In this document: positions 8,322-38,323 of the stretch, piece after piece
Layout: every line of letters starts with the position of its first letter
Numbering within the stretch: the first letter of the stretch is position 1
Virus record (IMG/VR): IMGVR_UViG_3300005253_000282
Span: 1 to 39,896 of that record
DNA from: a virus
Strand: one strand, 5' to 3'
Length of the DNA: 39,896 nt
Notes under the pieces: generated by a model
What the model was told of the DNA's origin: nothing
The model's database searches: none
The model's input: only the letters and a program-made list of their open reading frames with translations
Translations under genes and position numbers: made by a program

Positions 8322-8624
8322 TTATGGATTACCTACATCAGTTGCAATCCAGTGAACCCTGATGTTCTGTGCCCCACCGCCTGTGGGTTTGTTCAGATAA
8401 ACAGAAAACCCGTTCACTGTTATATCTGTAACAGTAGCCGATTGATTCGGGTCAGAACTTTGTGGGGTAGCCACCACATTTGGCACACTCGCAAAGGCTG
8501 TTGTGAAAGTCACTGCCGCACTAAAGTCTTCAGTTACGCTCTCCCATGCCGACTTTATGTGTGTAACTGGGTGACTATGCAAGTTAGTCTCAGTACCACT
8601 TACCAGCTTTGTTGCACCAGCCAT
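8322..8624 (-). CDS. H-type lectin-like small virion protein, 100 aa
   Basis: Residues about 35-95 (FTTAFASVPNVVATPQSSDP then TVTDITVNGFSVYLNK) follow the pattern of H-type lectin domains: a strand, a loop with PxV, further strands and a final WIA. The N-terminal region has a short His cluster (LHSHPVTH) that could bind a metal. The start follows AAGGAG, just beneath the strong hairpin at 8637-8666. Likely a sugar-binding surface protein of the virion; the fold assignment is by pattern. Confidence 0.6.
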   Translation of the reverse strand: MAGATKLVSGTETNLHSHPVTHIKSAWESVTEDFSAAVTFTTAFASVPNVVATPQSSDPNQSATVTDITVNGFSVYLNKPTGGGAQNIRVHWIATDVGNP

Positions 8625-8636
8625 TTATTTCTCCTT

Positions 8637-8666
8637 AGAGGAGGGGGCAGTAATTCCCCCTCCTCT
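8637..8666 (+). other. perfect 11-bp inverted repeat; terminator-like on the plus strand
   Basis: AGAGGAGGGGG (8637-8647) pairs with CCCCCTCCTCT (8656-8666) around an 8-base loop. On the plus strand the stem is followed by TTTTGTTT, so it reads as an intrinsic terminator for rightward RNA. On the leftward strand that carries the genes there is no U-run and the stem lies just before the ribosome site of the lectin-like gene. It may set message stability or translation, or stop antisense RNA. Confidence 0.7.
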
Positions 8667-8671
8667 TTTGT

Positions 8672-9574
8672 TTACTGAAGGATGTTAAGCCACACTGTTG
8701 GTGCAATCGTGATGTTAGCAGGAGTACCCGCAGGTCCACCTATGTCGGTTGAGGCATAGACATGACCGATGCACTGTAGACTGGTTCCTTCAATACCATT
8801 ACACGTTGCATCACCTGTAGCTCCACCCTCTGATACCTGCGCCACACCAGCAATAGCGTAGCAAGGAACAGAGTTAGCGTCAGACCCCTCAAAGGTTGCA
8901 ATCATGGAAATCATGTTATGAGGGCCGGCAGTCTGTACCCAGACGTAGTTGCTTACAACAACGGTGTTGATGTAGACACCCACAGCCATGTTGTAGTTAG
9001 CTGTAGCAGGAGTTCTAATCTCTGCATAGGGATGCTCGCAAAGAACACAATCATCCGCAGTGGTTAGGGCTAAGACATTGGTGCCGTCAAGGGTGAAGGT
9101 AACGTTGTCGCTACCATCTGCCACTGTGTTGGAGATGATTTGTCTGGAACTGTACCTGCCCACAGTTGTGAGTCCCCCAGTACCCATCTTAATACCAAGG
9201 AATCCGCCTGCATACTGGTTCACTGCAATACCCGCCTTGGTAATCACAACATCGGCTGAACCGGCAGCTCCACTAACAACTAAGTTAGAAAGGTCTACAA
9301 GTTCGGCTGTAGACTCTGGGCAGTACCCAGCACCAACTACCGTAGAACCAGAACTCAGTACCGTATAAGCAAAAGTCCTTATCCCATACCGGTATATGGT
9401 GCCTGTAGGGTATAACTGGGTTGTGCCAATGGCGTAGACATCTGGTAATTTATACCCCTGACTCCATATCTTGCCCTCAGCATTGCCCGCCTCCCAAGGG
9501 GGCGGATAGAGGGTTCCACCATTTACAACCCTCAAATCGGCGTTTTTGTGTACTTTTTCTGTTGCAGTAGTCAA
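8672..9574 (-). CDS. putative virion protein next to the capsid gene, 300 aa
   Basis: Unrecognised as a family. The protein starts MTTATEKVHKNADLRVVNGG and is Gly-, Thr- and Val-rich with many short strands. The last part contains several Cys residues (for example CVLCEH near 175 and CYAIAGV). It is the first gene after the major capsid protein and its start follows a stem-loop. A major decoration, head-tip or tail component is possible. Its expression may be lower or higher than the capsid gene depending on the hairpin at 9599-9623. Confidence 0.7.
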   Translation of the reverse strand: MTTATEKVHKNADLRVVNGGTLYPPPWEAGNAEGKIWSQGYKLPDVYAIGTTQLYPTGTIYRYGIRTFAYTVLSSGSTVVGAGYCPESTAELVDLSNLVVSGAAGSADVVITKAGIAVNQYAGGFLGIKMGTGGLTTVGRYSSRQIISNTVADGSDNVTFTLDGTNVLALTTADDCVLCEHPYAEIRTPATANYNMAVGVYINTVVVSNYVWVQTAGPHNMISMIATFEGSDANSVPCYAIAGVAQVSEGGATGDATCNGIEGTSLQCIGHVYASTDIGGPAGTPANITIAPTVWLNILQ

Positions 9575-9598
9575 TGTATTTCTCCTTAATTTTATTTG

Positions 9599-9623
9599 GG
9601 GGCGATTTATTCAGGCTCGCCCC
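9599..9623 (-). other. 7-bp stem-loop between major capsid protein and the next gene
   Basis: GGGGCGA (9599-9605) pairs with TCGCCCC (9617-9623) with an 11-base loop. On the leftward strand it lies between the stop of the capsid gene and the start of the 300-residue gene. Only a weak A/T-rich tail follows, so it may be a partial terminator or an mRNA stability stem that sets the ratio of the two products. Confidence 0.4.
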
Positions 9624-9660
9624 TCAGCCTGTGAAGTCTATCGCTCATTAAAGGCTGAGT

Positions 9661-10686
9661 TTAGCCTATGATTGTTCCAGCTTCCTGGATGCTGTGAATG
9701 CGGCCTAACGCCCTTGTGCTACCCAACGCTAGGGTAACGTAAGCAGATAACCTGATGGCATCAGCATCAAAGTCAGACTGAGGACCCAACTCCTTCACTT
9801 TAAAGAAGGCTGTTCCGCCTGTTTGCCCACCTACTACCAGTGACAGCCCACCATCGGCTATTGCTCCAAAGCGGATAGCATAAATACTGGACATACCACT
9901 GTCATTACCCGAATCCTTCCCACCTGTGTTGTCGTTCTCCTGAAGCAGGTAATCGGAAATTACGATCGGGATTCCATCGAAGAAGTCTATCATCTTTCCG
10001 AACTGGTCAGGAGTATGGGTAATCGTAGCTATCGGAGCAGCACCACTCAATACGATGCCCTTTTCCATAGCAACCGCTGCCAGAGTATCCCTCATGGTTC
10101 TGGTCATCAACAGGATACTGGCTCTCGGCCTCACCGCATTTATAAGTTCCCTTAGAACCCTGAAAGTCAACGGATTTGAAGCCCCACCCATGTCGTGAGC
10201 CTGTAAGTTAGTAGCCGAAGAGAATGAATCCCCATCAGCTATGCTGATAAGTTTATCCAAGCCATCAAACTCTGTAGATGCTTCGGTGGAACCCGAACCA
10301 TAGACGAGTGTATCCTCAACAGTCCGTGCCACTCCCTTAACTAAGCTCTTCAAAATCTCGACCTTATACATGTTGGGGTTTTGATAAGTCTCCATTACGA
10401 ACTCATCCAGCAAATCCTGGCGTATTGCACGTTTTAACCAGACTTCTTTCTGGGTAATAGACCTATCAGCCGTAAAACTTATTTGCTGATGTATATCGTA
10501 CCAAGCCGCCGAAGGTAGAACATTCTCCCTGTTATAGATAAGCGACCTGCTGTTAAGCTGAACAACAGGTAACATCGGGAGTAATTGCCCCACCTCTATT
10601 GTCTCTTCGATAACACCAGCAATCATCTCTGAGATGACTAACTTTCGGAGTTCACTTAAGCTGCTAAAATGGCCTACTATAGCCAT
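9661..10686 (-). CDS. major capsid protein, HK97-fold type, 341 aa
   Basis: This is the likely shell subunit. It follows the scaffold-like gene, with a strong AAGGAGG ribosome site before ATG 10686. The N-terminal arm (about 1-60) is followed by an alternating alpha/beta body with typical features: a helix near EKGIVLSGAAP, a loop DFFDGIPIVISDYL, and a C-terminal beta end (GSTRALGRIHSIQEAGTIIG). Length 341 residues matches HK97-fold capsid proteins that use a separate scaffold. No protease domain is seen. The operon order terminase, portal, scaffold, capsid supports the call. Confidence 0.88.
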   Translation of the reverse strand: MAIVGHFSSLSELRKLVISEMIAGVIEETIEVGQLLPMLPVVQLNSRSLIYNRENVLPSAAWYDIHQQISFTADRSITQKEVWLKRAIRQDLLDEFVMETYQNPNMYKVEILKSLVKGVARTVEDTLVYGSGSTEASTEFDGLDKLISIADGDSFSSATNLQAHDMGGASNPLTFRVLRELINAVRPRASILLMTRTMRDTLAAVAMEKGIVLSGAAPIATITHTPDQFGKMIDFFDGIPIVISDYLLQENDNTGGKDSGNDSGMSSIYAIRFGAIADGGLSLVVGGQTGGTAFFKVKELGPQSDFDADAIRLSAYVTLALGSTRALGRIHSIQEAGTIIG

Positions 10687-10698
10687 ATAACCCTCCTT

Positions 10699-11328
10699 TT
10701 ATTTGTGTAGCTGTTCAAAGCCTGATAACATTTTACCCCCACTTGAATCAGCCATTTGCACACCCCCTGCTGTCTTACTGGAATCAGAAAGCAGTGTCTT
10801 AGTTTCAGTCTTCTTGGAAAGGGACTTGGCCAATTCCTCCATCGCTTTAACAGAGCCATCCGTGAACTTGATAAGAGTGTCAGCATTGACACCGAGGCGA
10901 GATGCTACCTCACGGGCGTTCTGCTCCTTCGTGTGTGTTGCACCTACTTCCTGAGCCTCTTTAGTCTTTGCCTTCTCTACTTCCAGTTCTGACGTTGTTT
11001 TAGCAAGTTCGGTTGCCGTATCTCTTGCCTTTTGCCTTGCCTTTATTCTGCTTAGTTTGTCATCATCCTCTCTGGCATCCTCCAATTCAGCCTCATCCTT
11101 CGCCTTCTGTTCTTGTGCCATTTTTTCTCGTTCAGCCTTGATAGCACCTTCCCTTTGTTCAAAGTTCTTGGCTGTCCTGCCAGCAGCAGACAAAGCATCC
11201 TCAGCCGCCTTCTTCGCCGCTTCTGCCACCTCTTCCTTAGTAAAAGTTTCGGGTTGTTCTGAAGTTCCCTTTGTTCCCTCAGAAGAGTTCCTTGCGGAAG
11301 TGTCCTGTTGGTTCTCAGGTCTGTCCAT
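10699..11328 (-). CDS. putative capsid scaffold protein, 209 aa
   Basis: The protein is highly charged, almost free of aromatic residues, and predicted to be a long helix or coiled coil from about residue 30 to 145 (many Ala, Glu, Lys and Arg), as in phage scaffolds. The C-terminal segment ends MLSGFEQLHK, which could bind the capsid. It is directly upstream of the major capsid gene (12 bases). ATG 11328 has an AAGGAGGAAAC ribosome site, located 19 bases below the U-run of the terminator of the structured RNA. No protease motif is seen. Confidence 0.8.
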   Translation of the reverse strand: MDRPENQQDTSARNSSEGTKGTSEQPETFTKEEVAEAAKKAAEDALSAAGRTAKNFEQREGAIKAEREKMAQEQKAKDEAELEDAREDDDKLSRIKARQKARDTATELAKTTSELEVEKAKTKEAQEVGATHTKEQNAREVASRLGVNADTLIKFTDGSVKAMEELAKSLSKKTETKTLLSDSSKTAGGVQMADSSGGKMLSGFEQLHK

Positions 11329-11346
11329 GTTTCCTCCTTTATAATT

Positions 11347-11380
11347 AAAAAAGCCGACTCAAGATTTCTCTTGGTCGGCT
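11347..11380 (-). terminator. rho-independent terminator
   Basis: On the leftward strand AGCCGAC pairs with GTCGGCT (11374-11380 with 11352-11358), extended by CAAG/CTTG with one bulged base, and is followed by six U residues (11347-11352). It ends the structured RNA and lies 19 bases upstream of the scaffold ATG. Confidence 0.9.
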
Positions 11381-11400
11381 ACGATTCTTTCGTTACCTCG

Positions 11401-11428
11401 CCCTTTCGGGCTTTCCCTTTCGGGCTTT
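11401..11428 (-). repeat. tandem 14-base repeat forming GAAA-loop hairpins
   Basis: The plus-strand unit ccctttcgggcttt occurs twice without gap (11401-11414, 11415-11428). On the leftward RNA each unit can form a CCC/GGG stem closed by a GAAA tetraloop; one extends to GCCC/GGGC. Such loops commonly dock into receptors in structured RNAs. Confidence 0.85.
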
Positions 11429-11442
11429 GCTTGCTGGCTATA

Positions 11443-11522
11443 GGTTGATGTAGGAATCAAACCTACAACGATGCTCCCTCTGGGAGCTAAGGGGCACCGC
11501 TTTCTCATTAAGCTAGTCAACC
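11443..11522 (-). tRNA. tRNA-like sequence (degenerate or noncanonical)
   Basis: In the leftward sense the 80 bases contain acceptor-like ends GGTTGAC and ATCAACC (six of seven pairs), TA at positions 8-9, a D-arm-like stem GCTT/AAGC, and a T-arm GTAGG-TTTGATT-CCTAC. The anticodon arm can use GGTGC with GCATC, but the loop is 19 rather than 7 bases. It can be read as a 7-base loop CCCTTAG, anticodon CTT for lysine with C instead of U33, plus a 12-base hairpin insertion. No CCA is encoded. It is probably not a normal translating tRNA; it may be a pseudo-tRNA, a spliced one, or a tRNA-mimicking part of the larger RNA. Confidence 0.45.
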
Positions 11523-11572
11523 TGACAGAGTCCCTGTCTGACACCAGCAAGCTTTATTCAGTTGTTAAAGAA

Positions 11573-11713
11573 CTAATCTACTTTCACAGTCTCCTTTATA
11601 TCAAAAGTGGTAGGCTTCCCTTTTTTAACATGCACCTCCACCGCTCCATATAAAACAAACTGCGACCAATCTATTGATTTGATAAGGTTCAATAATTTCT
11701 TCTTATCTATCAT
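11573..11713 (-). CDS. small protein resembling DUF2292/YezD family, 46 aa
   Basis: The frame MIDKKKLLNLIKSIDWSQFV continues LYGAVEVHVKKGKPTTFDIK and ends KETVKVD. It matches the pattern of tiny DUF2292-type proteins: a short helix, then a hydrophobic strand pair Y-G-x-V-x-V-x-V-K-x-G-K. The ATG has no good ribosome site, and it overlaps the -10 box of the promoter at 11709-11738. The gene would therefore be read from upstream mRNA of the 1760-residue gene, not from that promoter. Function unknown. Confidence 0.55.
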   Translation of the reverse strand: MIDKKKLLNLIKSIDWSQFVLYGAVEVHVKKGKPTTFDIKETVKVD

Positions 11714-11738
11714 AAGCACATTTTGTAAGAAATGTCAA
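11709..11738 (-). promoter_or_regulatory. sigma-70-like promoter for the structured RNA
   Basis: On the leftward strand TTGACA (11733-11738) is followed after 18 bases by TATGAT (11709-11714). Both boxes are close to consensus. It lies just downstream of the 1760-residue gene's stop and would transcribe the structured RNA, and by read-through the scaffold and capsid genes. Confidence 0.65.
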
Positions 11739-11749
11739 TTTTCTCTCAC

Positions 11750-14700
11750 TTATTTGTTTCTCTCACTCTCCAACATAGTCCCGAACTTTATATGTAACCA
11801 TTGGTCAAGTTCAGGGTATCTAGCCTCCATATCTCTCCTGGCATTACCTAAGTCTTTTAACTGCCATGTTTTGTATAGTTCAAAAACTTCCCTTGTAGGT
11901 ACTTTGTCAAAGTTGCGGGGTTTCCATATTCCCTTATCTATCATCTCCTGATAAAAGTCATCGTGTTCCTGTAAGTACCAGTCATCCTCATACCATTCCC
12001 CTTCGTGCTCCTTTGGCCTCTTAATATCAGGGTTAGTGTACCAATCAACATAAGTATCTTCAGAGACTATTTCTTTCTCAATAGCTTCTATACGCCTCAT
12101 ACCGGCTACCCACTTAGGGTTGTCAACTTTGAATTGCGCCCTCTCCTCATCTGTCTCAAGCACTTCATACTCAACAGACTTGTCAAACCACTTTGTTTTT
12201 AATTCATATATTGGTGTAAAGAGTTCATCATACTTCTCAGGGTTATCAAGGAAAGCAGGAATTGCCTCTGGTGGTATCCCGTATTTATCCATCAGACCTA
12301 GTAAAACCTCAGCACTCTTGGGGTTCTTGAAGGTTGAAATCTTACCCCAGAGATATAACTGAGCTTCAACATCCGGGAACTGCTGCCTGAATAATACCCT
12401 TGCTGCTTCATCGGTGAGGTCTTCATAAGGCACCCATAAGTCCTGTGCCCTTAAAAACTCAATGGCCAAGGCGTTCCCATCCTTCTCTATCCTGTACCTG
12501 CCAACAACCTTCAATAATTTATTAACTTCAGAGGCAAAGTTGCCGGTCGTGAAATAATCTAGTTCCCCATTCTCTTTTAGTTTTTGCTCACCTTTTTCTG
12601 TGAGCCCTACTTCCCCTAATGTCTTCTGTAGTTTGGCGAGTTCTTCATCCGTATCAACACCAAAGACCTTTTCGTAACCATCTATCATCTCGGTATCGAG
12701 CTTATGTTCCTCAATCAATCTCAAGACTTCAGCCCTTGCCGCGTCTGAAGAAAGCGTGGTGAACTTACCTGTAACAAACATCTGAGCTTCAATTAAGGGG
12801 TTATCCTTTCGGTAGTCGTCCCTATCTTTGGGTGCAAGGGCATCGTATTCCTTCCATCCCTTTTCCCATTTATTCTTTAGCTTTTTAATCTTCCAATCCT
12901 TGCCCTCAAGGTAGAAGAATAGTGTCAACCAGTCCCTCTCCCCACTAGCAACATTTTCTAGTTGCCTGATTATGCCTGGGGTTACGGATGACCTGAACTC
13001 ATACCAGCCCTGCTTGAACATCCTCTCGTCATCAGTAATGAAACCAGCCACCATGCTGGCTACAGCCCCAGGAACCGATAGCCCAGGGAAATCTCCACCA
13101 ATCACATCAGCCAAATACCTTATAGAGGTTATGCCAGTATATTCCCATGCCTTTAATCTGCTCTCTTCTTTAATGAGATACCCAAGACCGACTATCACCA
13201 TATACATCAAGATGGCCTTATAGGATGTAGACCAGTTGGCTTTCTTAACCTTTTGCCCAGTAGCCTTCTCATGCTCCAGATAAACTCGTGATGGTCTACG
13301 GCTTACCCATTTGGTCATCAGTTCCATCCAGTTTACAGTCCATGTGGTAAGGACTGAGAATACCCTGCCGATTGAAGTCTGAGACAATGCCATGCTGTTC
13401 ATCTTGGTATATAAATACTGGGTGTCAGCAGCTACTTCATCCCCTCTCTCAATCCAGACCTGTCTATTAGCTTCAGGCAACAGAGTCTTTGCCTCTGAGT
13501 ACCCAGCTAGGAAGGCATCCTTAACATTCTGGGCATCAGCAGCACGAAACATCCACAAGGCTGTTTCCCTGAATTTGTCAACCCACCTACTTGCAAAGGA
13601 GTCATCAATGCCAGGTAGGAAGGCAGCCCTACGAGAACGCCATACTAGAGAATTATCTAAGGCGGCCTTACCTTCCTCAGTAAAACGCAACGAGATACCA
13701 TTGTTAAAATGTAGCGGACCGACCTCCGCCATTATCAGTGTGTGTTGGCTCAAGTTCCTTATGGCAGAAGTGGGTTTGAAGCCAAGCCAGAGAGTGTATA
13801 AAGCACTGGTAAAGTTATAAGATGCCATGCCCGCAGGATTGCCCCTTGTCAGGAATCTGGCGAACGGCGCTCCTCCCGGCAACTTCGCTATCTTCTCACC
13901 AAACTCTTTAAGGGTGTTGTTTATTTCCTGATCGAGTTTGGATGGTTTGCCAGTCATCCTTTGAGCATAATCTTGTAGATAATTACGTGCCGCTTGAGGG
14001 GTGGTTTCGGCATTAGCGATCGCAGCCAACTTCTGTAGTAACGGCTCATAGTAAAATACCCTTAGTTGTTTTGACTCATAAGCGGAGGCAGCAGCAAATG
14101 GGTCTTCAATCAACCCGACTGTTGCCCCTAATCTCTCCTGCAAAAACGGATTAAAGATGGTCTTGGGAGTTCTATACTCCAATGCCCTAACCATAGCAAT
14201 ATCCAAGGGATGTTTGGTTTTTAATTGTGCAGCAATATCAGCTTCGAATATATGGGTGATATAGTTTTTTACTCTCTTATTCTGTGGGAGATTTAATGTA
14301 TCCGCCCACTCATCAAAGAACTTCTTGAACCAGGCTACTGCCCTCTTTTCATTGAAGGTCAACCCCACCTGAGAGCCAGCCTCGTCAAGTTCCCTAAAAA
14401 CAATATGTCGTCTCTTCTTGTCTACCCATTTATTTACCTCTTTGAGTTTCTTGGCAAACACTTGTCTAGCTTCACCCTGTAATACCTCAGCTTCCTGTAT
14501 CCCCTTAAATTCTTCATAAAGTCCCATCTTCTCAAAGACTTTGCGGGTAGGTCTAACTCGTTCCTTTGCCCCTATATCTCGTACAATAGGCACGGTATCC
14601 GCTACATCTTGTGGTATTGTTTCGTCTGGGTTTATAGGAGAACCAGTCTCATCATAGATTATACGTTCAGGTGCTACTTCCTCTACCACTGGAGCTACTG

Positions 14701-17032
14701 GTTCTACTGCTGGGGGTTTGGGAATTACTTGCTCCGCTTTAACATAGGTGTCATAGAATTGTGCTGGTGTGATTTTAAGAGTTCGCTTAATATACGCATC
14801 TATCCTCTGTGCTGTTTCCCTACGGGTTAAATTCTGTTCGTTAAGCCCTACTTGGTACTGAGTAAGGAATTCTTCCTTTGAGAGCTTTATTGCATTAGTA
14901 GCAAAACTCTTTAATTCCTCGGGTAATTTAACTTCAGGCACAGCTTCAGGGATTCTCAGAGCTTCACCCCTTGCCAGGTCAGCTTCCAGTATTTCAATCC
15001 TACGCTGTAGTGCTGCTCTCTCTTCTACCGGAGCAGTGGGGAGTTTAGCTTTCAGGTCGGCTATATCACTCTTGAGTTGGAACTCTTCCCGGAACGTTAT
15101 CGGTTCTATCTTCTCAGCTTGCCTTTCTTTGCTGGCCTCTATCTGCATTTGTGCATCTTCTTTTTGGACATCCTGAACTATAAACTCAATTATCTCTATG
15201 CCTTTTGTTGTCTTGGCGAGTTCCTCTAAAGCTACAAGAAGTGCCTTCTGCTCATCTAAGCCATTTTGCATTGCCTCAGTCATATCATCAAAAAACTGAC
15301 CTTGCATATCTTGGGGGATGTTTTTTACCGTCCTATCAATAATCGTAGTAAAGGCAGCCCCCGTTCCACCCATGCCAGAACCCATTACACCGCCCAAAAG
15401 CATAGCCAGTTTCATGTCTTCATCTAATACAATAGGGTCTCCCAAGGCTTGTCTCTGGAAGATTTCCTGAACTGCCTCTTCACCAGCTTCTGTTAAGCCA
15501 GTGACAATAACCTTACCCCCCACTATAGCTGCCTTGAGAAATGGATTGGCTAATATTTTAGCTGGAATAGGAAGGAAAGCTGTAGCTAGCTGCGCTATAT
15601 CCCATCCTGAAAGTATTAAGTTCTTGAGAAAGACATCTTGTGCCACTTTACTGGCTTGCTCGGAGGTCATGTCTCTGGATATAGCTTCATCAAAGGCGCC
15701 AGCAGCTTCAAGGACACCTTCTAGCGGGCGTGATAATGAGGTGGCTCCAACAGCACCCAGAACAGTAGTCCAAAAAGCCCCCAAGCCAATAGCACCTGCA
15801 ACCGCTGTTCCCCCAGTATAGCCAGCTATCATCGCAGGGACTAAAGCTAAAGTAAACGGCGTATTCCTAGCTAGAAAGTCTGGGAGGTTTGACCAGAACG
15901 CAGGGTCAGCAGCCGACTTCCAATCCAGAGGTGGCATCTCTGGTGGTGATATAGTCCCCTTTAAGGGCTTAGCTAATTCTTTAATATTTTTAGCGAGTTC
16001 TTCCTGACCTAACCATTGCAAAGCGCTGCCTGCTGTCCCTATTACATCACCCCAACCTGCCAGAAACTGAGCGGCAAGTGGGCTTTTGTTAGCAAAATCT
16101 ATCCTTAATTGCTTTGCTTCAGCGGTTAAGGGCAAGCCTGCCAACTTGCGGAATACATCCTCTCTTAATTCTCCTGTGATTTGTGCCTCTGAAAGAGCTT
16201 GTTCTCTTCTCCATTGGTCAAAAGAGAGATTGCCACCACGTTCCCTGTATTGCTTAAACACCCGTTGGTTTGCCACCCTCTCCTCTTCCGTCTTTGGGAA
16301 ACTGAATGGAACTGCAAACTCTATCGGTTGAGGCATTGGCACCTGACTTGAAAGAGGAACCACTGCAGTTAAGGCGGATTCCCCAAATAAATCAACTAAA
16401 TCTTCCTCAGTAATCTGAATAATCTCGCCCTCTGTGTCTCTCCAAGGGATTAGCCTTAATAAAGCCTCAACCTCGGGTGTTCTGCCCAAAGTCTGTATAT
16501 CTTCCCAGAAAGCATCAGGGGCATTACTAATGTACTGACTAAGGGCTTGAAGGTCAGCCCCTAATACTCCCGTAACTCGCCCAGGGAATAAGGTCTCTAG
16601 TAAGTCATGTAATTGCTCTTGTTGTTCTATCCTATACAGATGACCATACCTTGCTACCCAAACCTCAGAGGAAATAGTCGGGTCATCGAGTGCACGCCTA
16701 GCCTCTTCGAATGTTGCCGCCTGCGTGACTTCCCCAAAGAACTCTGCTATATCAGCCTCTGTAGCACCGAGCCCCGTTAGTGTTTCTACTGTCTGAGGCG
16801 TTCTACCCTGCGCCAGTAAGTCTCTAACATAGGCTTCAAAAGCCCCTTCGGATACTGGTGTTGAAACAGAGGGAGATTCAGTATAAAACAGCCCCCCTTC
16901 AGGTTTTCTGTATAGAGGTGGAGGTGTCCCAAACTCACTGACTATATCACCCTGAGTAGTTGTCCATATCTTTTTCCACCGCAGAGTGCCGGGTTCCCTA
17001 TACCATTCTGGTGGGCGAACTGCTGTAACCAA
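11750..17032 (-). CDS. giant virion protein, candidate ejection/internal protein, 1760 aa
   Basis: Begins at TTG 17032 with an AAAGGAG ribosome site; the product starts MVTAVRPPEWYREPG. It lies between portal and scaffold genes. The N-terminal third is helical and acidic. At about 390-440 there is a long hydrophobic, Gly-rich stretch (FTLALVPAMIAGYTGGTAVA), and a second Gly/Met-rich stretch about 570-590. Charged helical segments follow, then aromatic-rich helices about 1100-1450, including ALSQTSIGRVFSVLTTWTVN, like the large multidomain phage proteins linked to DNA ejection. No protease, lysozyme or polymerase motif was found by eye. It may be injected with the DNA or line the head; it is far longer than typical tape-measure proteins. 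Role is inferred from size, position and membrane-active stretches. Confidence 0.6.
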   Translation of the reverse strand: MVTAVRPPEWYREPGTLRWKKIWTTTQGDIVSEFGTPPPLYRKPEGGLFYTESPSVSTPVSEGAFEAYVRDLLAQGRTPQTVETLTGLGATEADIAEFFGEVTQAATFEEARRALDDPTISSEVWVARYGHLYRIEQQEQLHDLLETLFPGRVTGVLGADLQALSQYISNAPDAFWEDIQTLGRTPEVEALLRLIPWRDTEGEIIQITEEDLVDLFGESALTAVVPLSSQVPMPQPIEFAVPFSFPKTEEERVANQRVFKQYRERGGNLSFDQWRREQALSEAQITGELREDVFRKLAGLPLTAEAKQLRIDFANKSPLAAQFLAGWGDVIGTAGSALQWLGQEELAKNIKELAKPLKGTISPPEMPPLDWKSAADPAFWSNLPDFLARNTPFTLALVPAMIAGYTGGTAVAGAIGLGAFWTTVLGAVGATSLSRPLEGVLEAAGAFDEAISRDMTSEQASKVAQDVFLKNLILSGWDIAQLATAFLPIPAKILANPFLKAAIVGGKVIVTGLTEAGEEAVQEIFQRQALGDPIVLDEDMKLAMLLGGVMGSGMGGTGAAFTTIIDRTVKNIPQDMQGQFFDDMTEAMQNGLDEQKALLVALEELAKTTKGIEIIEFIVQDVQKEDAQMQIEASKERQAEKIEPITFREEFQLKSDIADLKAKLPTAPVEERAALQRRIEILEADLARGEALRIPEAVPEVKLPEELKSFATNAIKLSKEEFLTQYQVGLNEQNLTRRETAQRIDAYIKRTLKITPAQFYDTYVKAEQVIPKPPAVEPVAPVVEEVAPERIIYDETGSPINPDETIPQDVADTVPIVRDIGAKERVRPTRKVFEKMGLYEEFKGIQEAEVLQGEARQVFAKKLKEVNKWVDKKRRHIVFRELDEAGSQVGLTFNEKRAVAWFKKFFDEWADTLNLPQNKRVKNYITHIFEADIAAQLKTKHPLDIAMVRALEYRTPKTIFNPFLQERLGATVGLIEDPFAAASAYESKQLRVFYYEPLLQKLAAIANAETTPQAARNYLQDYAQRMTGKPSKLDQEINNTLKEFGEKIAKLPGGAPFARFLTRGNPAGMASYNFTSALYTLWLGFKPTSAIRNLSQHTLIMAEVGPLHFNNGISLRFTEEGKAALDNSLVWRSRRAAFLPGIDDSFASRWVDKFRETALWMFRAADAQNVKDAFLAGYSEAKTLLPEANRQVWIERGDEVAADTQYLYTKMNSMALSQTSIGRVFSVLTTWTVNWMELMTKWVSRRPSRVYLEHEKATGQKVKKANWSTSYKAILMYMVIVGLGYLIKEESRLKAWEYTGITSIRYLADVIGGDFPGLSVPGAVASMVAGFITDDERMFKQGWYEFRSSVTPGIIRQLENVASGERDWLTLFFYLEGKDWKIKKLKNKWEKGWKEYDALAPKDRDDYRKDNPLIEAQMFVTGKFTTLSSDAARAEVLRLIEEHKLDTEMIDGYEKVFGVDTDEELAKLQKTLGEVGLTEKGEQKLKENGELDYFTTGNFASEVNKLLKVVGRYRIEKDGNALAIEFLRAQDLWVPYEDLTDEAARVLFRQQFPDVEAQLYLWGKISTFKNPKSAEVLLGLMDKYGIPPEAIPAFLDNPEKYDELFTPIYELKTKWFDKSVEYEVLETDEERAQFKVDNPKWVAGMRRIEAIEKEIVSEDTYVDWYTNPDIKRPKEHEGEWYEDDWYLQEHDDFYQEMIDKGIWKPRNFDKVPTREVFELYKTWQLKDLGNARRDMEARYPELDQWLHIKFGTMLESERNK

Positions 17033-17060
17033 TTAAATTCTCCTTTAAGGGCTAGGCTAT

Positions 17061-17471
17061 TTATTCTTCACTGCTGATATAAACATTAAATACCTCCGTT
17101 ATAGCTGGGTGAAGTTCTATTGTTAATGTCCCAGATGAACCTAAACTTAGATAAAACCCATTGGAGGGATAGAAAACTAAAAGCCCATCGGATATATCCG
17201 AATAGTAAATTACGTTAATCGGTATATCACCAGTGTTTTTAACGAAGGCTACTATTTGCTTGGTTTCAATAGAAGACATATCCCCATAGTCTAATGACGT
17301 TAAAACCTGGGTCATTGCTGGGTCACTGTAGACTTCAATCCCTGGTGAAACAATTATAGTGACTGTACCCGGAATTGTCTTTAACGGAGTCACCGCGTAT
17401 ACAATCGCACCAAGTAAAAGTATAACTATTATAACTGAGATGATACTCTTAAAAAGTTTAACTTCAATCAT
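17061..17471 (-). CDS. membrane-anchored beta-domain protein, 136 aa
   Basis: An N-terminal hydrophobic helix (about residues 7-27, SIISVIIVILLLGAIVYAV) could be a signal anchor. It is followed by about 105 residues of beta-rich sequence (PGTVTIIVSPGIEVYSDPAM to the end) like an Ig-like outer domain with no cysteines. ATG 17471 overlaps the stop of the small upstream gene. The protein may be inserted in the host membrane with its domain outside, or be a virion part used during entry. It has the look of secreted or surface domains from anaerobic bacteria and archaea; no specific family is claimed. Confidence 0.6.
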   Translation of the reverse strand: MIEVKLFKSIISVIIVILLLGAIVYAVTPLKTIPGTVTIIVSPGIEVYSDPAMTQVLTSLDYGDMSSIETKQIVAFVKNTGDIPINVIYYSDISDGLLVFYPSNGFYLSLGSSGTLTIELHPAITEVFNVYISSEE

Positions 17472-17587
17472 TTTCTCGCTCTCCGCGCTGCTTCCCTTAG
17501 CCTTTGTATATCAGATACACCTGATGGTTGAGGCGTTAAGCGTGCCCTTATCCGTTTATTGAACTCTGCACTCTTCTTCTCTGCCAT
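17468..17587 (-). CDS. small basic protein, 39 aa
   Basis: The frame MAEKKSAEFNKRIRARLTPQ then PSGVSDIQRLREAARRARK starts at ATG 17587 with a GGAGG ribosome site, and its ATGA end overlaps the next gene. It is basic and helical in the second half. It fits the run of tiny coupled genes between portal and the 136-residue protein; the role is unknown. Confidence 0.6.
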   Translation of the reverse strand: MAEKKSAEFNKRIRARLTPQPSGVSDIQRLREAARRARK

Positions 17588-17702
17588 TATCCTCCACCCT
17601 CTTTCTCAGGGCAAGCGCCCTCTTGATTTTCTTTGCCTCTGCTTTAATCCACCTATCTATCCCTTCTTCGAGTTCCTTTCTCGGTATGTTCGTTACAGCC
17701 AT
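17556..17702 (-). CDS. small helical protein, 48 aa
   Basis: ATG 17702 has a strong AAGGAGG ribosome site; an earlier in-frame start would overlap the upstream gene and lacks such a site. The product MAVTNIPRKELEEGIDRWIK continues AEAKKIKRALALRKRVEDNG and is a single charged helix. It overlaps the 39-residue gene by 32 bases. No family recognised. Confidence 0.6.
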   Translation of the reverse strand: MAVTNIPRKELEEGIDRWIKAEAKKIKRALALRKRVEDNGREEECRVQ

Positions 17703-17713
17703 TTTAATCCTCC

Positions 17714-17845
17714 TTAACGTTTCCAGATCAAGTGCCATGCAAACAACAACCTGTTTCTCCAAGGCCAAGAATACAGATGCTTTACATATTCTCTCCCATC
17801 TCTCCTACTCGCTTGCCTTATCTTCCGAGCTAACTGGCCATTCAT
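17714..17845 (-). CDS. small Trp/Arg-rich protein, 43 aa
   Basis: The start ATG 17845 forms an ATGA overlap with the portal stop. The product MNGQLARKIRQASRRDGREY ends with VKHLYSWPWRNRLLFAWHLI and WKR, an amphipathic tail with a hydrophobic Trp-rich segment that resembles small membrane-associating phage peptides found near portal genes. Function is unknown. Confidence 0.6.
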   Translation of the reverse strand: MNGQLARKIRQASRRDGREYVKHLYSWPWRNRLLFAWHLIWKR

Positions 17846-19545
17846 TCCCCACCTTCCTCACTAACTGGTGTCCTTTGTAAATTGCTGGCTCTCTGTGCTG
17901 AAGTCGGTCCACCACCTAATCCTAAAGCTAAAGGTTGCGGTGGTTGCTCTCTGGCTGGGGGAAGTTCAGGTAATTCTCCTGATTGTAACTTATCCAAAGT
18001 AACCCCCATTGACATCTCTGCCAGTTCAGCATCTACATTGTCATCTTCATTCTCGGAATCAAACAGAGTTCTTATTGTCCTGGCCTGTTTGATAATAGGG
18101 AATAATACCTCGGCCTCCTCAATACGAAGTTGTTCTTCTTCCCCTTCTGAGTCTTCGTAGTTGATTACATCTCGCATCTTTGTCCTCTTTGACATAAGGT
18201 CACCAAACGATGCAGCTACAGAAGAGCGAGCTGCATCAACCTTTGGGTCTTTGATGAAGTACTTAAAAACAATATCGTACTCTCCATCTAACTTAGAGGT
18301 GTCCCACGGCTGCTTGTGCCCCCTCGCGCCCATCTCTACACTGCCACCAATCTGTCTTACCTGCTCTATAAGCATGTACGATAACTGTTGATTGAGCAAA
18401 CCCCTGGCTCCCAGTCTGGGTAGAAAGACCTGATCTCTCCCCTCGCTTATCTGAATCAAAGCTATGGCGGAGGGCGGTTGACCCGGCATTATGCCTAAGT
18501 CAATACTCGACAAACTACCCCTCTGTATCCTGCTCTCCACTACCGCCATAAGTTGACCATAAGCCCTCATTACATCCTGAATGGGCATATTAGAATAGCC
18601 ACCACCTATTTCCGTGGCAGCAACAGACCCGGGTTTTGTTACCTTGTTATACTTCCCGGGTGTAGCCGAACGCCCCTCTTTGGTTGCCTCTTGAAGTGCC
18701 CCCGCTACAGTCCTGAAGTTAATCGTCTTTGCTATAGTGGATAGTTCATTTAACTCTTTGACCAAGTCTCTAAATAAGAAAAAGATTGACTCACCTTGAT
18801 GAGCAAGGCTATCCTTATCTGCTAACATTGAACCGAGCGTTACTACCTGAATGGCTACAGGGGTGAAACCTAATGTGTGCTCCTGCTCAAATACTATCTT
18901 CCCATCAACCAAGATTTCGTTATGAGTCGTATCCCATACATCGACTTTCTCAATGTTTTTTTCCTTCCCCTTTAATACAGCATTTAATCCTTTGGATTTC
19001 GTTACCCATAACTCCGACTCTATCTCTTCTTTGCTGTTTGAAGTCGTATAAGCTGCCCAAGCCAATCCTTTAGTTCCTGGCGCATATGTAACATACTTCA
19101 TATCCCAAGGCGTAATGTCAGCATCTAATTCTCCGTCTATCTTTTGGAATAGACAGCGTGCCCCAGCTCTTCCCCTGATACAATTTTGCTCATCGAAGAA
19201 CGGATTGAGCTGCCACTCACTCCGCAAGGCTCGCCTTAAACCTACAGCACCAAAGGCAGCCTCAAGAAAGTCCTCAACATACCCCGTATCTAACTTCTCA
19301 TCGTCTGTCTCTACTACTCGTTGCTCTTCTGCTGAACCAAGATTGGATGTAATATTGGCTAAGAACACAGCAGGATCATTCATGGTTGAATTACGGACAT
19401 TGGGGACAGCGTGTCCCTTGTCTTTCCCTTCAAGCACAAAAGGGGTTAAATACAATAAATCCTTATCCGCATCCCACCGAGCCTCAAGCCCCGATGTTTT
19501 ATTCCTAGATTGCTGTTCCTTTACTTTTTCATAATATGTTGCCAT
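17842..19545 (-). CDS. portal protein, 567 aa
   Basis: The product is 567 residues, the usual portal size, and lies two genes after the large terminase. It contains N-terminal helices, a central mixed alpha/beta core with AWAAYTTSNSKEE and a clip region, then helices with Gln-rich PPSAIALIQISEGRD, typical of the crown and stem of phage portals, and a long acidic C-terminal tail (SEGEEEQLRIEEAEVL to end) rich in Glu and Pro. The subunit would form the dodecameric ring through which DNA is packed and released. Start ATG 19545 lies within the end of the preceding gene (overlap 25 bases). Confidence 0.85.
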   Translation of the reverse strand: MATYYEKVKEQQSRNKTSGLEARWDADKDLLYLTPFVLEGKDKGHAVPNVRNSTMNDPAVFLANITSNLGSAEEQRVVETDDEKLDTGYVEDFLEAAFGAVGLRRALRSEWQLNPFFDEQNCIRGRAGARCLFQKIDGELDADITPWDMKYVTYAPGTKGLAWAAYTTSNSKEEIESELWVTKSKGLNAVLKGKEKNIEKVDVWDTTHNEILVDGKIVFEQEHTLGFTPVAIQVVTLGSMLADKDSLAHQGESIFFLFRDLVKELNELSTIAKTINFRTVAGALQEATKEGRSATPGKYNKVTKPGSVAATEIGGGYSNMPIQDVMRAYGQLMAVVESRIQRGSLSSIDLGIMPGQPPSAIALIQISEGRDQVFLPRLGARGLLNQQLSYMLIEQVRQIGGSVEMGARGHKQPWDTSKLDGEYDIVFKYFIKDPKVDAARSSVAASFGDLMSKRTKMRDVINYEDSEGEEEQLRIEEAEVLFPIIKQARTIRTLFDSENEDDNVDAELAEMSMGVTLDKLQSGELPELPPAREQPPQPLALGLGGGPTSAQRASNLQRTPVSEEGGE

Positions 19546-20054
19546 GTATCACCATCCCAGACTTTGTTGTGTTTCTCTTTTATCACAAAGGCTAACCAGA
19601 GTTGTTCCATTGATACTGGTTCATCACTCATTGCCCAAAGATAATCATGCCAGTTATCGTCTACAAACTGCCAAAATACTTCTAGCTGTCCCCTTGAGGA
19701 ATATTCTGCTGGTGGTAAATTGTGGAAGTATTTAACCATCTCCTGTAACTGGGCTTGGCAGGGGAGCCAGATAATCTCATCCACTTTATACGTAATACGC
19801 CTATCAGACTGAACAGCACACCCAAATTGTGGGATGTTTGAAACATAGCCAAATACAGTAGCATTCCAGACATTATGGCTACCGATTGTGGAATCGGGGT
19901 AATATTGACCACCTTCATGGACACCATAGAAATCATGGTTATCTAGTATAAGGGCTTCAGCACTTGGACTCGTATCAGAAAATGCCTTATAGCGTTTGGT
20001 GTTCTGTATCTCCTCACAATCACACATCTTTATATAGGTTTCAGTAGTATCCAT
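19521..20054 (-). CDS. conserved phage protein of unknown function, 177 aa
   Basis: The start MDTTETYIKMCDCEEIQNTK resembles small phage proteins with a KMCDCxEIQ opening seen elsewhere in early or packaging regions. The rest is Trp- and Tyr-rich with acidic patches (WQFVDDNWHDYLWAMS and WDGDTWQHIMKK). It has no zinc ribbon beyond the two early Cys. It lies between large terminase and portal, and its end overlaps the portal start. Probably cytoplasmic; the role is unknown. Confidence 0.7.
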   Translation of the reverse strand: MDTTETYIKMCDCEEIQNTKRYKAFSDTSPSAEALILDNHDFYGVHEGGQYYPDSTIGSHNVWNATVFGYVSNIPQFGCAVQSDRRITYKVDEIIWLPCQAQLQEMVKYFHNLPPAEYSSRGQLEVFWQFVDDNWHDYLWAMSDEPVSMEQLWLAFVIKEKHNKVWDGDTWQHIMKK

Positions 20055-20064
20055 TACCTACCTC

Positions 20065-21336
20065 CTAACCCCATGATGATACCGATACCTGCGGGCCTCT
20101 ACTATCTACTGTCTCCGGTGTGAAGTCACTCAGGATACCCCTCTCAGCAGCTAACAGATGGAACCGCTTCTCATTGTCTATCTCATCGGTAAGAGTGGAA
20201 CCATCTTTCTTAAAGGCCATGCTTAGCTTTTCCCGTATATAATTTGCCAAATCGTTAAAGATAAAGATTTTATTAAGTCGGTGTAGAGCTTGAACTTTCC
20301 GTCTCTGCAATTTAACATCGAGGCTGTGCTTCGGTTCACTGATAGGCCATCCCTGTGCTGTGTATGCCTGCCTGATTTGACCTTCAGCATGATTGCCACC
20401 AGCACGCTTGATGACACTGTAAGTCTCCGGCTGCTCTTTCCCATACTCCCCTGGCAAACAGACAATCTGCTTGAAGTCCTGTACGTGGTCATATATACCC
20501 TTATCTCCACCAGGCAAATACTCCGCGAAGGCAAAGAATTCACCAGTGCCAGGATTCTCGGCAAAGAATAGAGCAGCAGGGTTAGCATCACCGAAGTCAT
20601 GACCGGTATATATAAGCCAGTTCTTAGGTATCTCGAACCGTGGAATTAGACATATCTTCTCATCAAAGGCCGAGTACACCAAGCCTTCCATGCCGGTCCA
20701 TTTACCGAGCACATAGCGGTCATAGTATACGCCCTCATACTCCCCAAGCCTCTCTATATAGTCCTCTGGTAGTTCTGGGTTTTCTAATGAGCTGGCCTGA
20801 TATACTTCGCCCTTCTTCTCTGTAAAAAACATCCGATGCAGGTAATGAGCCGGCGGACCTGGGTTAGTGGCTGCAAATATCTGATGAGGTACACCCTTCA
20901 ACCGTAGCCGGCCCTCTAACATCTTCCAGTCTTCTTCTTGAGATTCTATCGCCTCATCAACGCCAACCCACCCAAGATTCAAGGAACCTAGTTTCAAAGG
21001 ATCGTCAAGTCCCCCAAAAAGTATCTGGCTCCCATTGTGGAGAGTAACCAACCCCTCACTCTTGTTGTAGTCTGCTATCAACTCTTGGGGACATACAAGA
21101 TCGAAGAATGTCTTGAGTGTGGTCTGAGCTAGTGTTGCCCTCACCTTCCGGCATATTAAACCGAAGTTACCTGGATAGTCCTGAGAGAGCTTGAGACCCT
21201 TAGCACAGAGGACAAGAGTCTTTCCTGCACCAAAGGCACCGGAGAATAGCAAGCGAGGAGCCAATGAGGACATGAAACCATCTTGCTGTTTGTTTACCGC
21301 CTCAAATATCAGGTCAACTTTAGGTATTGTTACCAT
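20065..21336 (-). CDS. terL: terminase large subunit, 423 aa
   Basis: Packaging motor ATPase and nuclease. Walker A is SGAFGAGKT at about residues 32-40, Walker B GWVGVDEA at about 122-129, and the coupling motif AATNP at 155-159. The nuclease part begins near 245 with GHDFGDANP, which holds candidate metal-binding aspartates. Length 423 is normal for compact TerL proteins. Start ATG 21336 overlaps the end of the small subunit by 17 bases. This identifies the start of the packaging operon. Confidence 0.93.
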   Translation of the reverse strand: MVTIPKVDLIFEAVNKQQDGFMSSLAPRLLFSGAFGAGKTLVLCAKGLKLSQDYPGNFGLICRKVRATLAQTTLKTFFDLVCPQELIADYNKSEGLVTLHNGSQILFGGLDDPLKLGSLNLGWVGVDEAIESQEEDWKMLEGRLRLKGVPHQIFAATNPGPPAHYLHRMFFTEKKGEVYQASSLENPELPEDYIERLGEYEGVYYDRYVLGKWTGMEGLVYSAFDEKICLIPRFEIPKNWLIYTGHDFGDANPAALFFAENPGTGEFFAFAEYLPGGDKGIYDHVQDFKQIVCLPGEYGKEQPETYSVIKRAGGNHAEGQIRQAYTAQGWPISEPKHSLDVKLQRRKVQALHRLNKIFIFNDLANYIREKLSMAFKKDGSTLTDEIDNEKRFHLLAAERGILSDFTPETVDSRGPQVSVSSWG

Positions 21337-21841
21337 CGGTTACATAACCTCGACCAATTACGAATTTAACATCCACATTTAAGTTGACATGTCTTTCCGG
21401 GGGGTAGTCACCACCCATCTTGTTAAGCTCTGAGATGGATTTCACAGGGTCATGAAGTTTTAGCTTGGTAATAACAGTAGGGTGAGCGCCGTTCTCATCA
21501 TATTCCGTCCGACTGGTAACCTCCTGAAGAGCTGCACTATGGGTGGACTCCAATCCGATGTTTATCCAAGCACCATCAGCCCCGCACTCTATAAAGTCAG
21601 TCATCCGTGCCCTAAGAATCTCACTCAGTACCTTTTTACGCTCCAATACACCAGCAACAGCATCATCTTCAGCTCTTTGATTAAGTTCATCAAGGCGTTG
21701 CCGAACCCTAGTATTTTTTAGTAGCTTGTGGACATTGACATCAGCAAACTTTGAGGAATAACCTGCCAAGATATAAGAGCCGTCCGGGTCTCTTGTCTTG
21801 AAGTACTCAAGGCAGAAGGTTTCCTGTTTTTGAGTTAGCAT
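21320..21841 (-). CDS. terS: terminase small subunit, 173 aa
   Basis: The N-terminus MLTQKQETFCLEYFKTRDPD, then SYILAGYSSKFADVNVHKLL and RVRQRLDEL, is the HTH-type DNA-recognition domain of the Terminase_2 family. The C-terminal half contains a central helical oligomerisation part and a basic/Val-rich end. It recognises the packaging site on concatemers and passes DNA to TerL. The first gene of the leftward operon, with GGGGAG ribosome site before ATG 21841 and a promoter at 21862-21890. Confidence 0.88.
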   Translation of the reverse strand: MLTQKQETFCLEYFKTRDPDGSYILAGYSSKFADVNVHKLLKNTRVRQRLDELNQRAEDDAVAGVLERKKVLSEILRARMTDFIECGADGAWINIGLESTHSAALQEVTSRTEYDENGAHPTVITKLKLHDPVKSISELNKMGGDYPPERHVNLNVDVKFVIGRGYVTDGNNT

Positions 21842-21861
21842 ACTCCCCTCTAATTATTTTA

Positions 21862-21890
21862 ACCTTACTTCACTTCTTGGATTTTGTCAA
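21862..21890 (-). promoter_or_regulatory. promoter of the terminase operon
   Basis: On the leftward strand TTGACA (21885-21890) is followed after 17 bases by TAAGGT (21862-21867), a weaker -10. It lies just upstream of the small terminase gene. Confidence 0.55.
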
Positions 21891-22083
21891 GTCAGGGAAG
21901 CTATCGCCTGGCAATCATATGTCATCTCATAAGTCCAGGGAGAGAGGTGACACACACTTACCTCATTAGCCCACCACCCAGTAAACAACAGTATAAGTAA
22001 GAATTAGTGCGCTTGTAAGGATAGATGATATAGCTTAATTGCCTTAGTTGTTTGCTAAGATTTGTTGTGGTTGGTTAGCCCCC
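21891..22083. other. intergenic region between divergent operons
   Basis: About 190 bases with no gene that I can support. It separates the leftward terminase operon from the rightward small operon. No strong hairpin or repeat is visible; it may hold regulator sites. Confidence 0.6.
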
Positions 22084-22112
22084 TTGCCAAATCTATACAT
22101 ATACCTTATGAT
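22084..22112 (+). promoter_or_regulatory. promoter of the rightward operon
   Basis: TTGCCA (22084-22089) is followed after 17 bases by TATGAT (22107-22112). Transcription would start near 22119, a short distance before the aggaggtag ribosome site of the first rightward gene. Confidence 0.65.
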
Positions 22113-22132
22113 GAGTAGTAGGAGGTAGAGAG

Positions 22133-22279
22133 ATGAAAAAGATATTGGCTTTTTTAATGGGGGCAGTGGAATTTAGGCATGATTGTACAAAGCACTATGC
22201 CGACCCTATGTCAATGCTTATATACGATTACGGCAGGGACTTTGCCCATAGAGCAACGTTACGTCTATTTGACTCTTAA
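22133..22279 (+). CDS. small phage protein, 48 aa
   Basis: The product MKKILAFLMGAVEFRHDCTK continues HYADPMSMLIYDYGRDFAHR and ends ATLRLFDS. It matches the pattern of a small, widespread phage protein of unknown function, with a hydrophobic start, an acidic/aromatic middle and a YDYGRDFAHR motif. It is preceded by an AGGAGG ribosome site and is the first gene of the rightward operon. Confidence 0.75.
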   Translation: MKKILAFLMGAVEFRHDCTKHYADPMSMLIYDYGRDFAHRATLRLFDS

Positions 22280-22311
22280 GCACGGTAGTATCAAGTAAAG
22301 GAGGTAAGGAA

Positions 22312-22644
22312 ATGGCAAACCTCAAGACAATGCAAGCCTACGCCAATAAGTGTGCAGAGAAATGGCAAACCTCCGACTGTAAGCTGGGAAAGTGGGCAAA
22401 TGCCCACTGCCACATCTTAGACGGTGAATACCCCAGAGGTGTGATCTGCCTGCACCACCGCCGTATACCTGCCAAAAGTACCAAGGGTTGGCATTATACT
22501 ATCGCCCATGAGGTAGCACACCTGGCGGTCAAGTCTAACCACTCAACAGCTACATTCGCCAGACGTATGGTTGCATTAGGAATTGCCAGTGACTACGATA
22601 AAGATTCAATCCGCAGGGCAAAAGCATATGCTAATATCAAATAA
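22312..22644 (+). CDS. HExxH metalloprotein, SprT-like, 110 aa
   Basis: The sequence HEVAH at residues 66-70 plus a third His at 77 makes a zinc site of the SprT/zincin type (HExxH with a downstream His). A Cys-containing N-terminal half (CAEKWQTSDCKLG) precedes it. An AAGGAGG ribosome site supports ATG 22312. The second HExxH protein, at 25152-25454, has the same spacing. Likely a small metalloprotease or a nonproteolytic zincin-fold factor; substrate is unknown. Confidence 0.7.
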   Translation: MANLKTMQAYANKCAEKWQTSDCKLGKWANAHCHILDGEYPRGVICLHHRRIPAKSTKGWHYTIAHEVAHLAVKSNHSTATFARRMVALGIASDYDKDSIRRAKAYANIK

Positions 22645-37577: not shown

Positions 37578-37734
37578 TTAATCCCTCCTTACCATGCTTT
37601 CTTAATCCGAGGCTAATAGCCCAATTCATCCAGCGGTTGAAAGTCCATTTCTTAGGATTAGCTCTCTTCATTATCCGCTTGTAATCCTCATCGGAGACCC
37701 GGATTCCTCTTGCGTGGCTATCTTTAGTTGGCAT
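37555..37734 (-). CDS. ribbon-helix-helix-like DNA-binding protein, 59 aa
   Basis: Product MPTKDSHARGIRVSDEDYKR then IMKRANPKKWTFNRWMNWAI and SLGLRKHGKE has the strand, helix, helix order (GIRVSDEDYKRIMKRA ... FNRWMNWAI) of Arc/MetJ-type small regulators. The end overlaps the start of the 89-residue gene. Could repress this operon or its neighbour, with targets unknown. Confidence 0.55.
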   Translation of the reverse strand: MPTKDSHARGIRVSDEDYKRIMKRANPKKWTFNRWMNWAISLGLRKHGKEGLSENGNLQ

Positions 37735-38323
37735 CTACCCTTCCTCTATAACCTAATTTATGCAAAATACTTGATACAGTAATGATTGGCATACCTAACA
37801 CAAATGCTATCCCTGAATGGCTTAATCCTGCGTCCCTCAAATCCTTGACTTTGTTATAGTCCCATTTGCGCCTAGCGAATGCCCCCCTAGCTATATTTTC
37901 AGGGTGCTTGGCGAACCCGTGATTTACCCCAATCCGTTTACCAAAGCATCTCCGTGAACAAAAATAATGGTCTCCTGTATAACCCTTTCCCGCTCCCCTT
38001 TTTGGGTTGAGGATATTTGCCATTACCACTGATTTACGCCGATGAAACAATCTACCACACATATCGCAAATAAGCGGTATCCATGTATATTCCGAAGAGC
38101 ACTCCCTAGAACAAAATATTATCCTCTGACTGGTAGCATGAAACTCTTTACGGCAATTGGGACAGATTCTATCCAGCCCCCACAATGCCCTTGTTGGTAG
38201 ACGTTCTTTTTTCAAGACCTGACGAACCCGCTCACGTGTTACCCCTACCCTATCTCCAATCTCTCTTAAAAACATGCAAGGGTTATTTGCCCTTAATTGT
38301 AAAATGCGCTCTTTTGTTAGCAT
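37724..38323 (-). CDS. HTH and zinc-finger protein, 199 aa
   Basis: The first 45 residues (RILQLRANNPCMFLREIGDR, VGVTRERVRQVLKKERLPTR) form a sigma-region-4-like helix-turn-helix. Two Cys4 sites follow (CPNC...CSREC; CDMC...CSRRC), then a second HTH-like part near the C-terminus (NKVKDLRDAGLSHSGIAFVL, GMPIITVSSIL). It is the first gene of the long leftward early operon, directly behind a strong promoter, so it may be a regulator of early genes or an HNH-derived DNA-binding factor. Start ATG 38323. Confidence 0.65.
   Translation of the reverse strand: MLTKERILQLRANNPCMFLREIGDRVGVTRERVRQVLKKERLPTRALWGLDRICPNCRKEFHATSQRIIFCSRECSSEYTWIPLICDMCGRLFHRRKSVVMANILNPKRGAGKGYTGDHYFCSRRCFGKRIGVNHGFAKHPENIARGAFARRKWDYNKVKDLRDAGLSHSGIAFVLGMPIITVSSILHKLGYRGRVDAN

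Follow-up and report, generated by a model that had tools for sequence, protein, structure and literature searches.

A predicted promoter, boxA-like motif and terminator with a tRNA-like RNA insert ahead of the scaffold gene of a phage

Introduction

The lambda pR'-tR' unit (6S RNA) and the nut and put leaders of the lambdoid phages place a strong promoter, a short leader RNA and an intrinsic terminator before late genes, together with a boxA-like element. By itself boxA is known mainly for antitermination against Rho and not against intrinsic terminators. In phage T4 the tRNA gene cluster also yields the stable RNAs C and D, which are non-decoding and of unknown function. Beyond rRNA, boxA sites are known to regulate genes (PMC5725501).

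The stretch analysed here, the window in what follows, comprises one IMG/VR virus record (IMGVR_UViG_3300005253_000282) over its full 39,896 nucleotides. On its minus strand a gap of 421 nt separates a 1760-codon gene (11750–17032) from a 209-codon gene (10699–11328). Read 5' to 3' on that strand, the gap holds a promoter-like site, a 46-codon ORF, a boxA-like element, a structured stretch and an intrinsic terminator (Table 1).

Organization of the locus

Table 1. Features of the leader and of the adjoining head genes (positions in the window)
Feature	Position	Strand	Basis
Sigma-70-like promoter, TTGACA-18-TATGAT	11709–11738	-	11/12 consensus matches
ORF of 46 codons, MIDKKKLLNLIKSIDWSQFVLYGAVEVHVKKGKPTTFDIKETVKVD, DUF2292-like	11573–11713	-	Aligns with ORFs of L090, L092 and L101
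boxA-like element TTCTTTAACAACTGAATAA, putative NusB/NusE (S10) site	11554–11572	-	Sequence likeness
Outer helix, 5' strand GCTTGCTGG, then TG (position of tRNA U8-G9)	11544–11552	-	9 bp with 11437–11429
Hairpin GACAG-GGACT-CTGTC	11524–11538	-	MFE and centroid fold
tRNA-like domain: acceptor, D-arm, extended arm at anticodon position, T-arm	about 11442–11523	-	RF00005; relaxed ARAGORN
Outer helix, 3' strand CCAGCAAGC	11429–11437	-	Fold
Tandem 14-nt repeat, two GAAA-loop hairpins or one joint hairpin	11400–11424	-	Sequence, fold
Small hairpin CGAAAGAATCG	11382–11392	-	Fold; similar ATCGAAGAACGAT ahead of terminator in L092
Intrinsic terminator, 12 bp with one bulge, then T6	11347–11380	-	-18.0 kcal/mol
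Shine-Dalgarno sequence AAAGGAGG of scaffold gene	11333–11340	-	Sequence
Putative scaffold gene, 209 aa	10699–11328	-	Role inferred from position, directly upstream of major head protein gene
Major head protein gene	9661–10686	-	phrog_212, E 1e-36

A homologue of the putative scaffold gene is also found upstream of the capsid gene in the related phage L001. The 1760-codon gene has no Pfam or PHROG match, yet is conserved across this phage group. Elsewhere in the window (37724–38323, minus strand) a protein with a match to sigma-70 region 4 is a candidate regulator.

The original prediction, made from the letters of the sequence, had proposed a promoter, an outer 9-bp helix, a tRNA-like fold, two tandem GAAA-loop hairpins, two other hairpins and a six-U terminator. 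We were able to locate each of these on the minus strand. TTGACA-18-TATGAT is present at 11738–11709, 11552–11544 pairs with 11437–11429, the hairpins besides the GAAA pair lie at 11538–11524 and 11392–11382, and the terminator reaches 11347, leaving 18 nt to the scaffold ATG (11328). The two GAAA hairpins are there as well (11424–11415 and 11411–11400), but the MFE structure gives an alternative joint fold in their place. The fold of 11560–11340 has an energy of -88.6 kcal/mol against -58.3 ± 4.6 in shuffles (z -6.6), and a perfect 9-bp helix starting from the boxA edge turned up in 48 of 20,000 dinucleotide shuffles. The promoter is the top scorer among 16 promoter-like sites in 8600–22400 (13.8 kb), a region in which the total of such sites is not above chance.

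It had further been claimed that no protein explains most of this stretch. For part of the stretch the claim fails, because the 46-codon ORF, which overlaps the promoter, takes up much of that third of 11738–11347 and its L090 version matches PF10055 [DUF2292] (E 1.3e-4, 21.9 bits, cut-off 22). DUF2292-like ORFs are present in the window, L090, L092 and L101, that of L090 being the only one near the Pfam cut-off. The ATG of the ORF falls inside the -10 hexamer, so the full ORF cannot come from this promoter. Since the promoter overlaps the start of the small ORF in the window, L090 and L092 alike, upstream transcripts would serve the ORF, and judging from these positions it is presumably from them that the protein is translated. 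Leader cassettes often have a small ORF, which in L095 and L096 is a zinc ribbon resembling Mu Com; these two lie immediately upstream of the leader (L095:5511-5627, L096:13645-13790).

The boxA-like element

The original prediction did not name the rrn-like boxA which directly precedes the structured RNA, the outer helix beginning one nucleotide past the motif. It lies between the promoter and the first gene, as is expected of a boxA leader. In other viral contigs a boxA-like motif occurs 16–50 nt past a near-consensus promoter in 8 of 60 distinct occurrences, which is more than shuffles suggest. A search of bacterial genomes with the exact 19-mer yielded only 14 chance-like matches, none of them seen near rRNA. 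At L276, L319, L342 and L307 the boxA-like CTTTAACAAYTGAATAR is followed by long, stable and apparently structured sequence, for which no Rfam match was found. Among other phage leaders, L291, L297, L270, L271 and L335 have a TTGACA-17-TATAAT-like promoter with the same boxA-like motif 16–39 nt behind it.

The leader in related phages

Relatives were collected with the capsid (L001, whose capsid is 83% identical), with the large gene (L089–L097) and by alignment of the conserved part of the large gene (L098–L117, partly the same contigs as L089–L097); a terminase query of viral contigs returned none. In 15 relatives we compared the sequence ahead of the scaffold gene, using a permissive list of boxA and terminator motifs. 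A promoter-like site, a terminator and, between the two, a motif similar to the boxA of the window are found in L090, L092, L095, L096, L101, L104 and L113, although with three mismatches each the promoters of L096, L101 and L104 are weak. In L111 the promoter-like site and the terminator are present and the boxA is ambiguous. An equivalent terminator occurs in eight relatives. At the equivalent place L090, L092, L113 and L115 carry TTGACA-17-TATAAT, TATGTT or TATGCT. In L108 and L115 the promoter is present and the terminator absent, so that the promoter runs directly into the scaffold gene. In L105 the promoter is weak and no terminator is convincing, and in 4 of the 15 relatives (L001, L094, L097 and L106) there is no cassette.

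The distance from boxA to terminator is 56–72 nt in six relatives which lack an insert, as against 217 nt in the window and 193 nt in L095, and the excess in these two is the tRNA-like insert. The basal unit in this comparison consists of promoter, boxA and terminator, with the tRNA-like RNA as an insert behind boxA; in the window phage and two relatives it is placed 1–3 nt past the motif. Promoter, boxA-like motif and terminator make up a recurrent leader of the scaffold gene, in which the tRNA-like RNA is optional.

The tRNA-like domain

The tRNA model RF00005 matches 11522–11442 with 36 bits, above the gathering score of 29 (E 5.4e-6 for the 481-base stretch), which bears out the predicted tRNA-like fold. 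The place of the anticodon loop is taken by 19 nt which extend the stem, where a tRNA has a loop of 7 nt; there is no U33 and no encoded CCA. ARAGORN at default settings found no tRNA, the fold appearing only at relaxed thresholds, and its searches for tmRNA and intron-containing tRNA found neither. At the elbow, A19-U56 may stand in for the G19-C56 contact.

Compensatory changes, proposed originally as the check on these structures, were found in the outer helix (see below); for the inner tRNA-like domain no homologue came to light. BLASTN of the stretch against phages and two related records returned no match, and a pattern describing the window's own D- and T-arms had 0 matches. It follows that two things speak for the nested fold, namely the tRNA model and the folding energy. 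A pattern for the outer helix retrieved 83 stretches from viral contigs, none of them tRNA-like; a large 119-nt group among these proved to be conserved coding sequence and was discarded.

A family of tRNA-Leu-like RNAs lacking the anticodon arm

At the same locus L095 and L105 have an insert with a tRNA-Leu-like D-arm, a T-arm and no anticodon arm. The arm pattern occurs in at least 120 viral stretches, and among the matches listed many are in Lactiplantibacillus plantarum phages and prophages, where the RNAs of this family (A3, model R1) are unannotated. Across 40 divergent members, 98% pairing is seen in the outer T-stem and in the acceptor stem, the latter lying outside the search pattern, with a covariation of 0.598 against 0.04–0.07 in slid controls; the lack of variation in the D-arm and inner T-arm follows from the pattern, in which both were fixed. 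None of the family members tested has an Rfam match, and the family is absent from Rfam 15. A family query of bacterial genomes found none, and no account of the Leu-type family turned up in a literature search of partial coverage.

The members possess a hypervariable core of 38–66 nt and a 7+6 bp acceptor/T stack (13 layers), as in L160:1492-1599, L147:1076-1185 and L126:492-605, and the core often ends in a hairpin ahead of ATG and the T-arm. On the minus strand of L145 (about 10530–10760 of the reversed locus) two such tRNA-like RNAs stand in tandem, and in L147 one copy of GCCCGAAAGGG, comparable with the tandem GAAA-hairpin repeat of the window, is found downstream of the tRNA-like RNA. 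Late transcriptional activators are frequent among the genes upstream of family RNAs (phrog_248 in 10 of 59 proteins), as are HNH endonucleases and terminases among those downstream, neighbours which mark the starts of late operons. The phages of L001 and L090 have a family member elsewhere, upstream of the terminase gene. That of L090 (L090:4343-4532) is a long variant of 190 nt which scores 51 bits with R1.

The window RNA scores 2.8 bits with R1 (E 1), that is, it does not match the model. The best alignment of R1 to the stretch pairs exactly UUGCUGG-UG...CCAGCAA, which corresponds to the outer helix together with the subsequent UG. Between the window and L095 the outer helix shows two compensatory changes in nine pairs, and in five members, the window, L095 and L105 among them, the 7-bp core is 100% paired with a covariation of 0.886 against no more than 0.13 when slid, in a set which is small and was partly chosen by the search pattern. 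Like the family, the window has an acceptor-like outer helix followed by UG at the same locus past boxA (L095, L105). It lacks the D-arm GCGGAATAGGTAGACGC and T-arm GGGTGCAAATCCC of the Leu type, its interior being a different tRNA-like domain. With moderate confidence we regard the window RNA as a probable variant of the family which has kept the acceptor and has a different interior, composed of a hairpin and a second tRNA-like domain; the two would then share an origin.

A broader proposal, to which we would give somewhat less than an even chance, is that these RNAs belong to an undescribed and widespread class of phage non-decoding tRNA-like RNAs, with intact acceptor, D- and T-arms and a hypervariable core where the anticodon arm would be, residing in boxA leaders or at the starts of late operons. 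The window RNA would then be a chimera, a second tRNA-like domain being nested in the acceptor helix of the first, and the class would engage host tRNA-handling proteins late in infection.

Proposed mechanism and alternatives

The reading we prefer, on which our own opinion is evenly balanced, is that the stretch is an attenuated, Nus-responsive 5' leader of the head (scaffold-capsid) operon, the terminated product of which is a non-decoding tRNA-like RNA. RNA polymerase would start at about 11702 and pass the boxA-like site, which should load NusB/NusE (S10), before transcribing the structured RNA. Most transcripts, about 355 nt long, would end and be released at the terminator (11347). The remainder, perhaps increased by Nus- or phage-dependent antitermination, would continue into the scaffold and capsid genes, much as at the lambda pR'-tR' late leader. 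From the arrangement of the sequence we infer the activity of promoter and terminator, the binding of Nus factors, the read-through, and the release and stability of the RNA. The original prediction had left a choice between an attenuating leader and a stable RNA acting in trans. This interpretation is supported in part. Comparison favours the anatomy of a leader, as promoter, boxA-like motif and terminator recur at this place in relatives and in two of these the promoter runs directly into the scaffold gene. The RNA, being an optional insert, is consistent with a further product which may have a role in trans.

One might instead give the RNA the leading part and suppose that a moron-type autonomous RNA gene lies between two late genes, its stable tRNA-like RNA acting in trans (for example by baiting nucleases or enzymes which handle tRNA) and any effects on the scaffold gene being incidental. 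The flanking genes are indeed adjacent in L001, L097 and L106, the unit has its own predicted promoter and terminator as a moron should, the small ORFs of the cassette vary among relatives (DUF2292-like, Com-like zinc ribbon and others), and the Leu-type RNA changes site, standing before the terminase gene in the phages of L001 and L090 and before the scaffold gene in L095 and L105. We nevertheless consider this unlikely, since the tRNA-like RNA is missing from six relatives which have the promoter, boxA-like motif and terminator, and two others retain the promoter but lack a terminator, which indicates that the conserved part is not the RNA. More doubtful still, and in our opinion improbable, is that the domain is a functionless remnant of a phage tRNA gene caught in the leader. 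In favour of decay are the match to the tRNA model with a disrupted anticodon loop and the intact tRNA genes found elsewhere in L096 and L097. Against it, the helices are intact, the 19/56 contact is readable as a compensatory A-U, a perfect 9-bp helix of low fold energy surrounds the domain, and the Leu-type RNAs found at this locus in relatives have retained all their arms and show covariation.

A bacterial Y RNA (YrlA) or a relative of it would join a basal stem of paired ends, for a Ro60 ortholog, to a tRNA-like module. The general layout is alike, with a basal stem and tRNA-like D, T and acceptor arms (PMC8394870), and phage Y RNAs have also been reported (PMC12282133). We hold this to be very improbable: RF02553 does not match at the locus, its best score in the window being 11.6 bits at another site against a gathering score of 69, and no Ro60/TROVE protein was found in the window record (E up to 10) or in 37 related records. 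A Y RNA function for the window RNA is accordingly not supported. Equally hard to credit is an element for RNase P processing or 5'-end protection, in which cleavage of the tRNA-like domain would define the end of the scaffold mRNA. Its acceptor/T-arm stack would make a plausible substrate, but there is no CCA or RCCA past the acceptor, and the terminator stands between the domain and the scaffold gene.

Comparison with known systems

If the leader proposed above is correct, the dose of head proteins in this phage group would be set by a leader in which an intrinsic terminator is coupled with a Nus-type antitermination signal, and a mimic of tRNA would be a by-product of the head-operon leader. 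Since the covarying Leu-type family occurs in Lactobacillus phages which can be grown in the laboratory, the role of non-decoding phage tRNA-like RNAs is directly testable.

The original statement that no described family has this layout stands for the whole, which has no Rfam match beyond tRNA, but each of the parts has known analogues. With tRNA (RF00005, 36 bits) the domain has acceptor, D-arm and T-arm in common, and it differs in the 19 nt at the 7-nt anticodon loop and in lacking U33 and CCA. YrlA (RF02553) likewise encloses a non-decoding tRNA-like module in a basal stem; in the window there is no match to its sequence or covariance model and the record has no Ro60 ortholog. T4 stable RNAs C and D resemble the window RNA by description, as non-decoding phage RNAs associated with tRNA genes. 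The rrn boxA and Nus sites (PMC5725501) share with the window a CTTTAACAAY core shortly past the promoter and ahead of an untranslated structured RNA, whereas the extended TGAATAR part of the window motif, unlike the rrn boxA, lies outside the E. coli consensus. Compared with the lambda pR'-tR', nut and put leaders, the window has no identified Q or N homologue, its leader is placed before the scaffold gene inside the structural region, and it carries a tRNA-like insert; yet the promoter, short leader, intrinsic terminator and boxA-like element of those leaders are all paralleled here.
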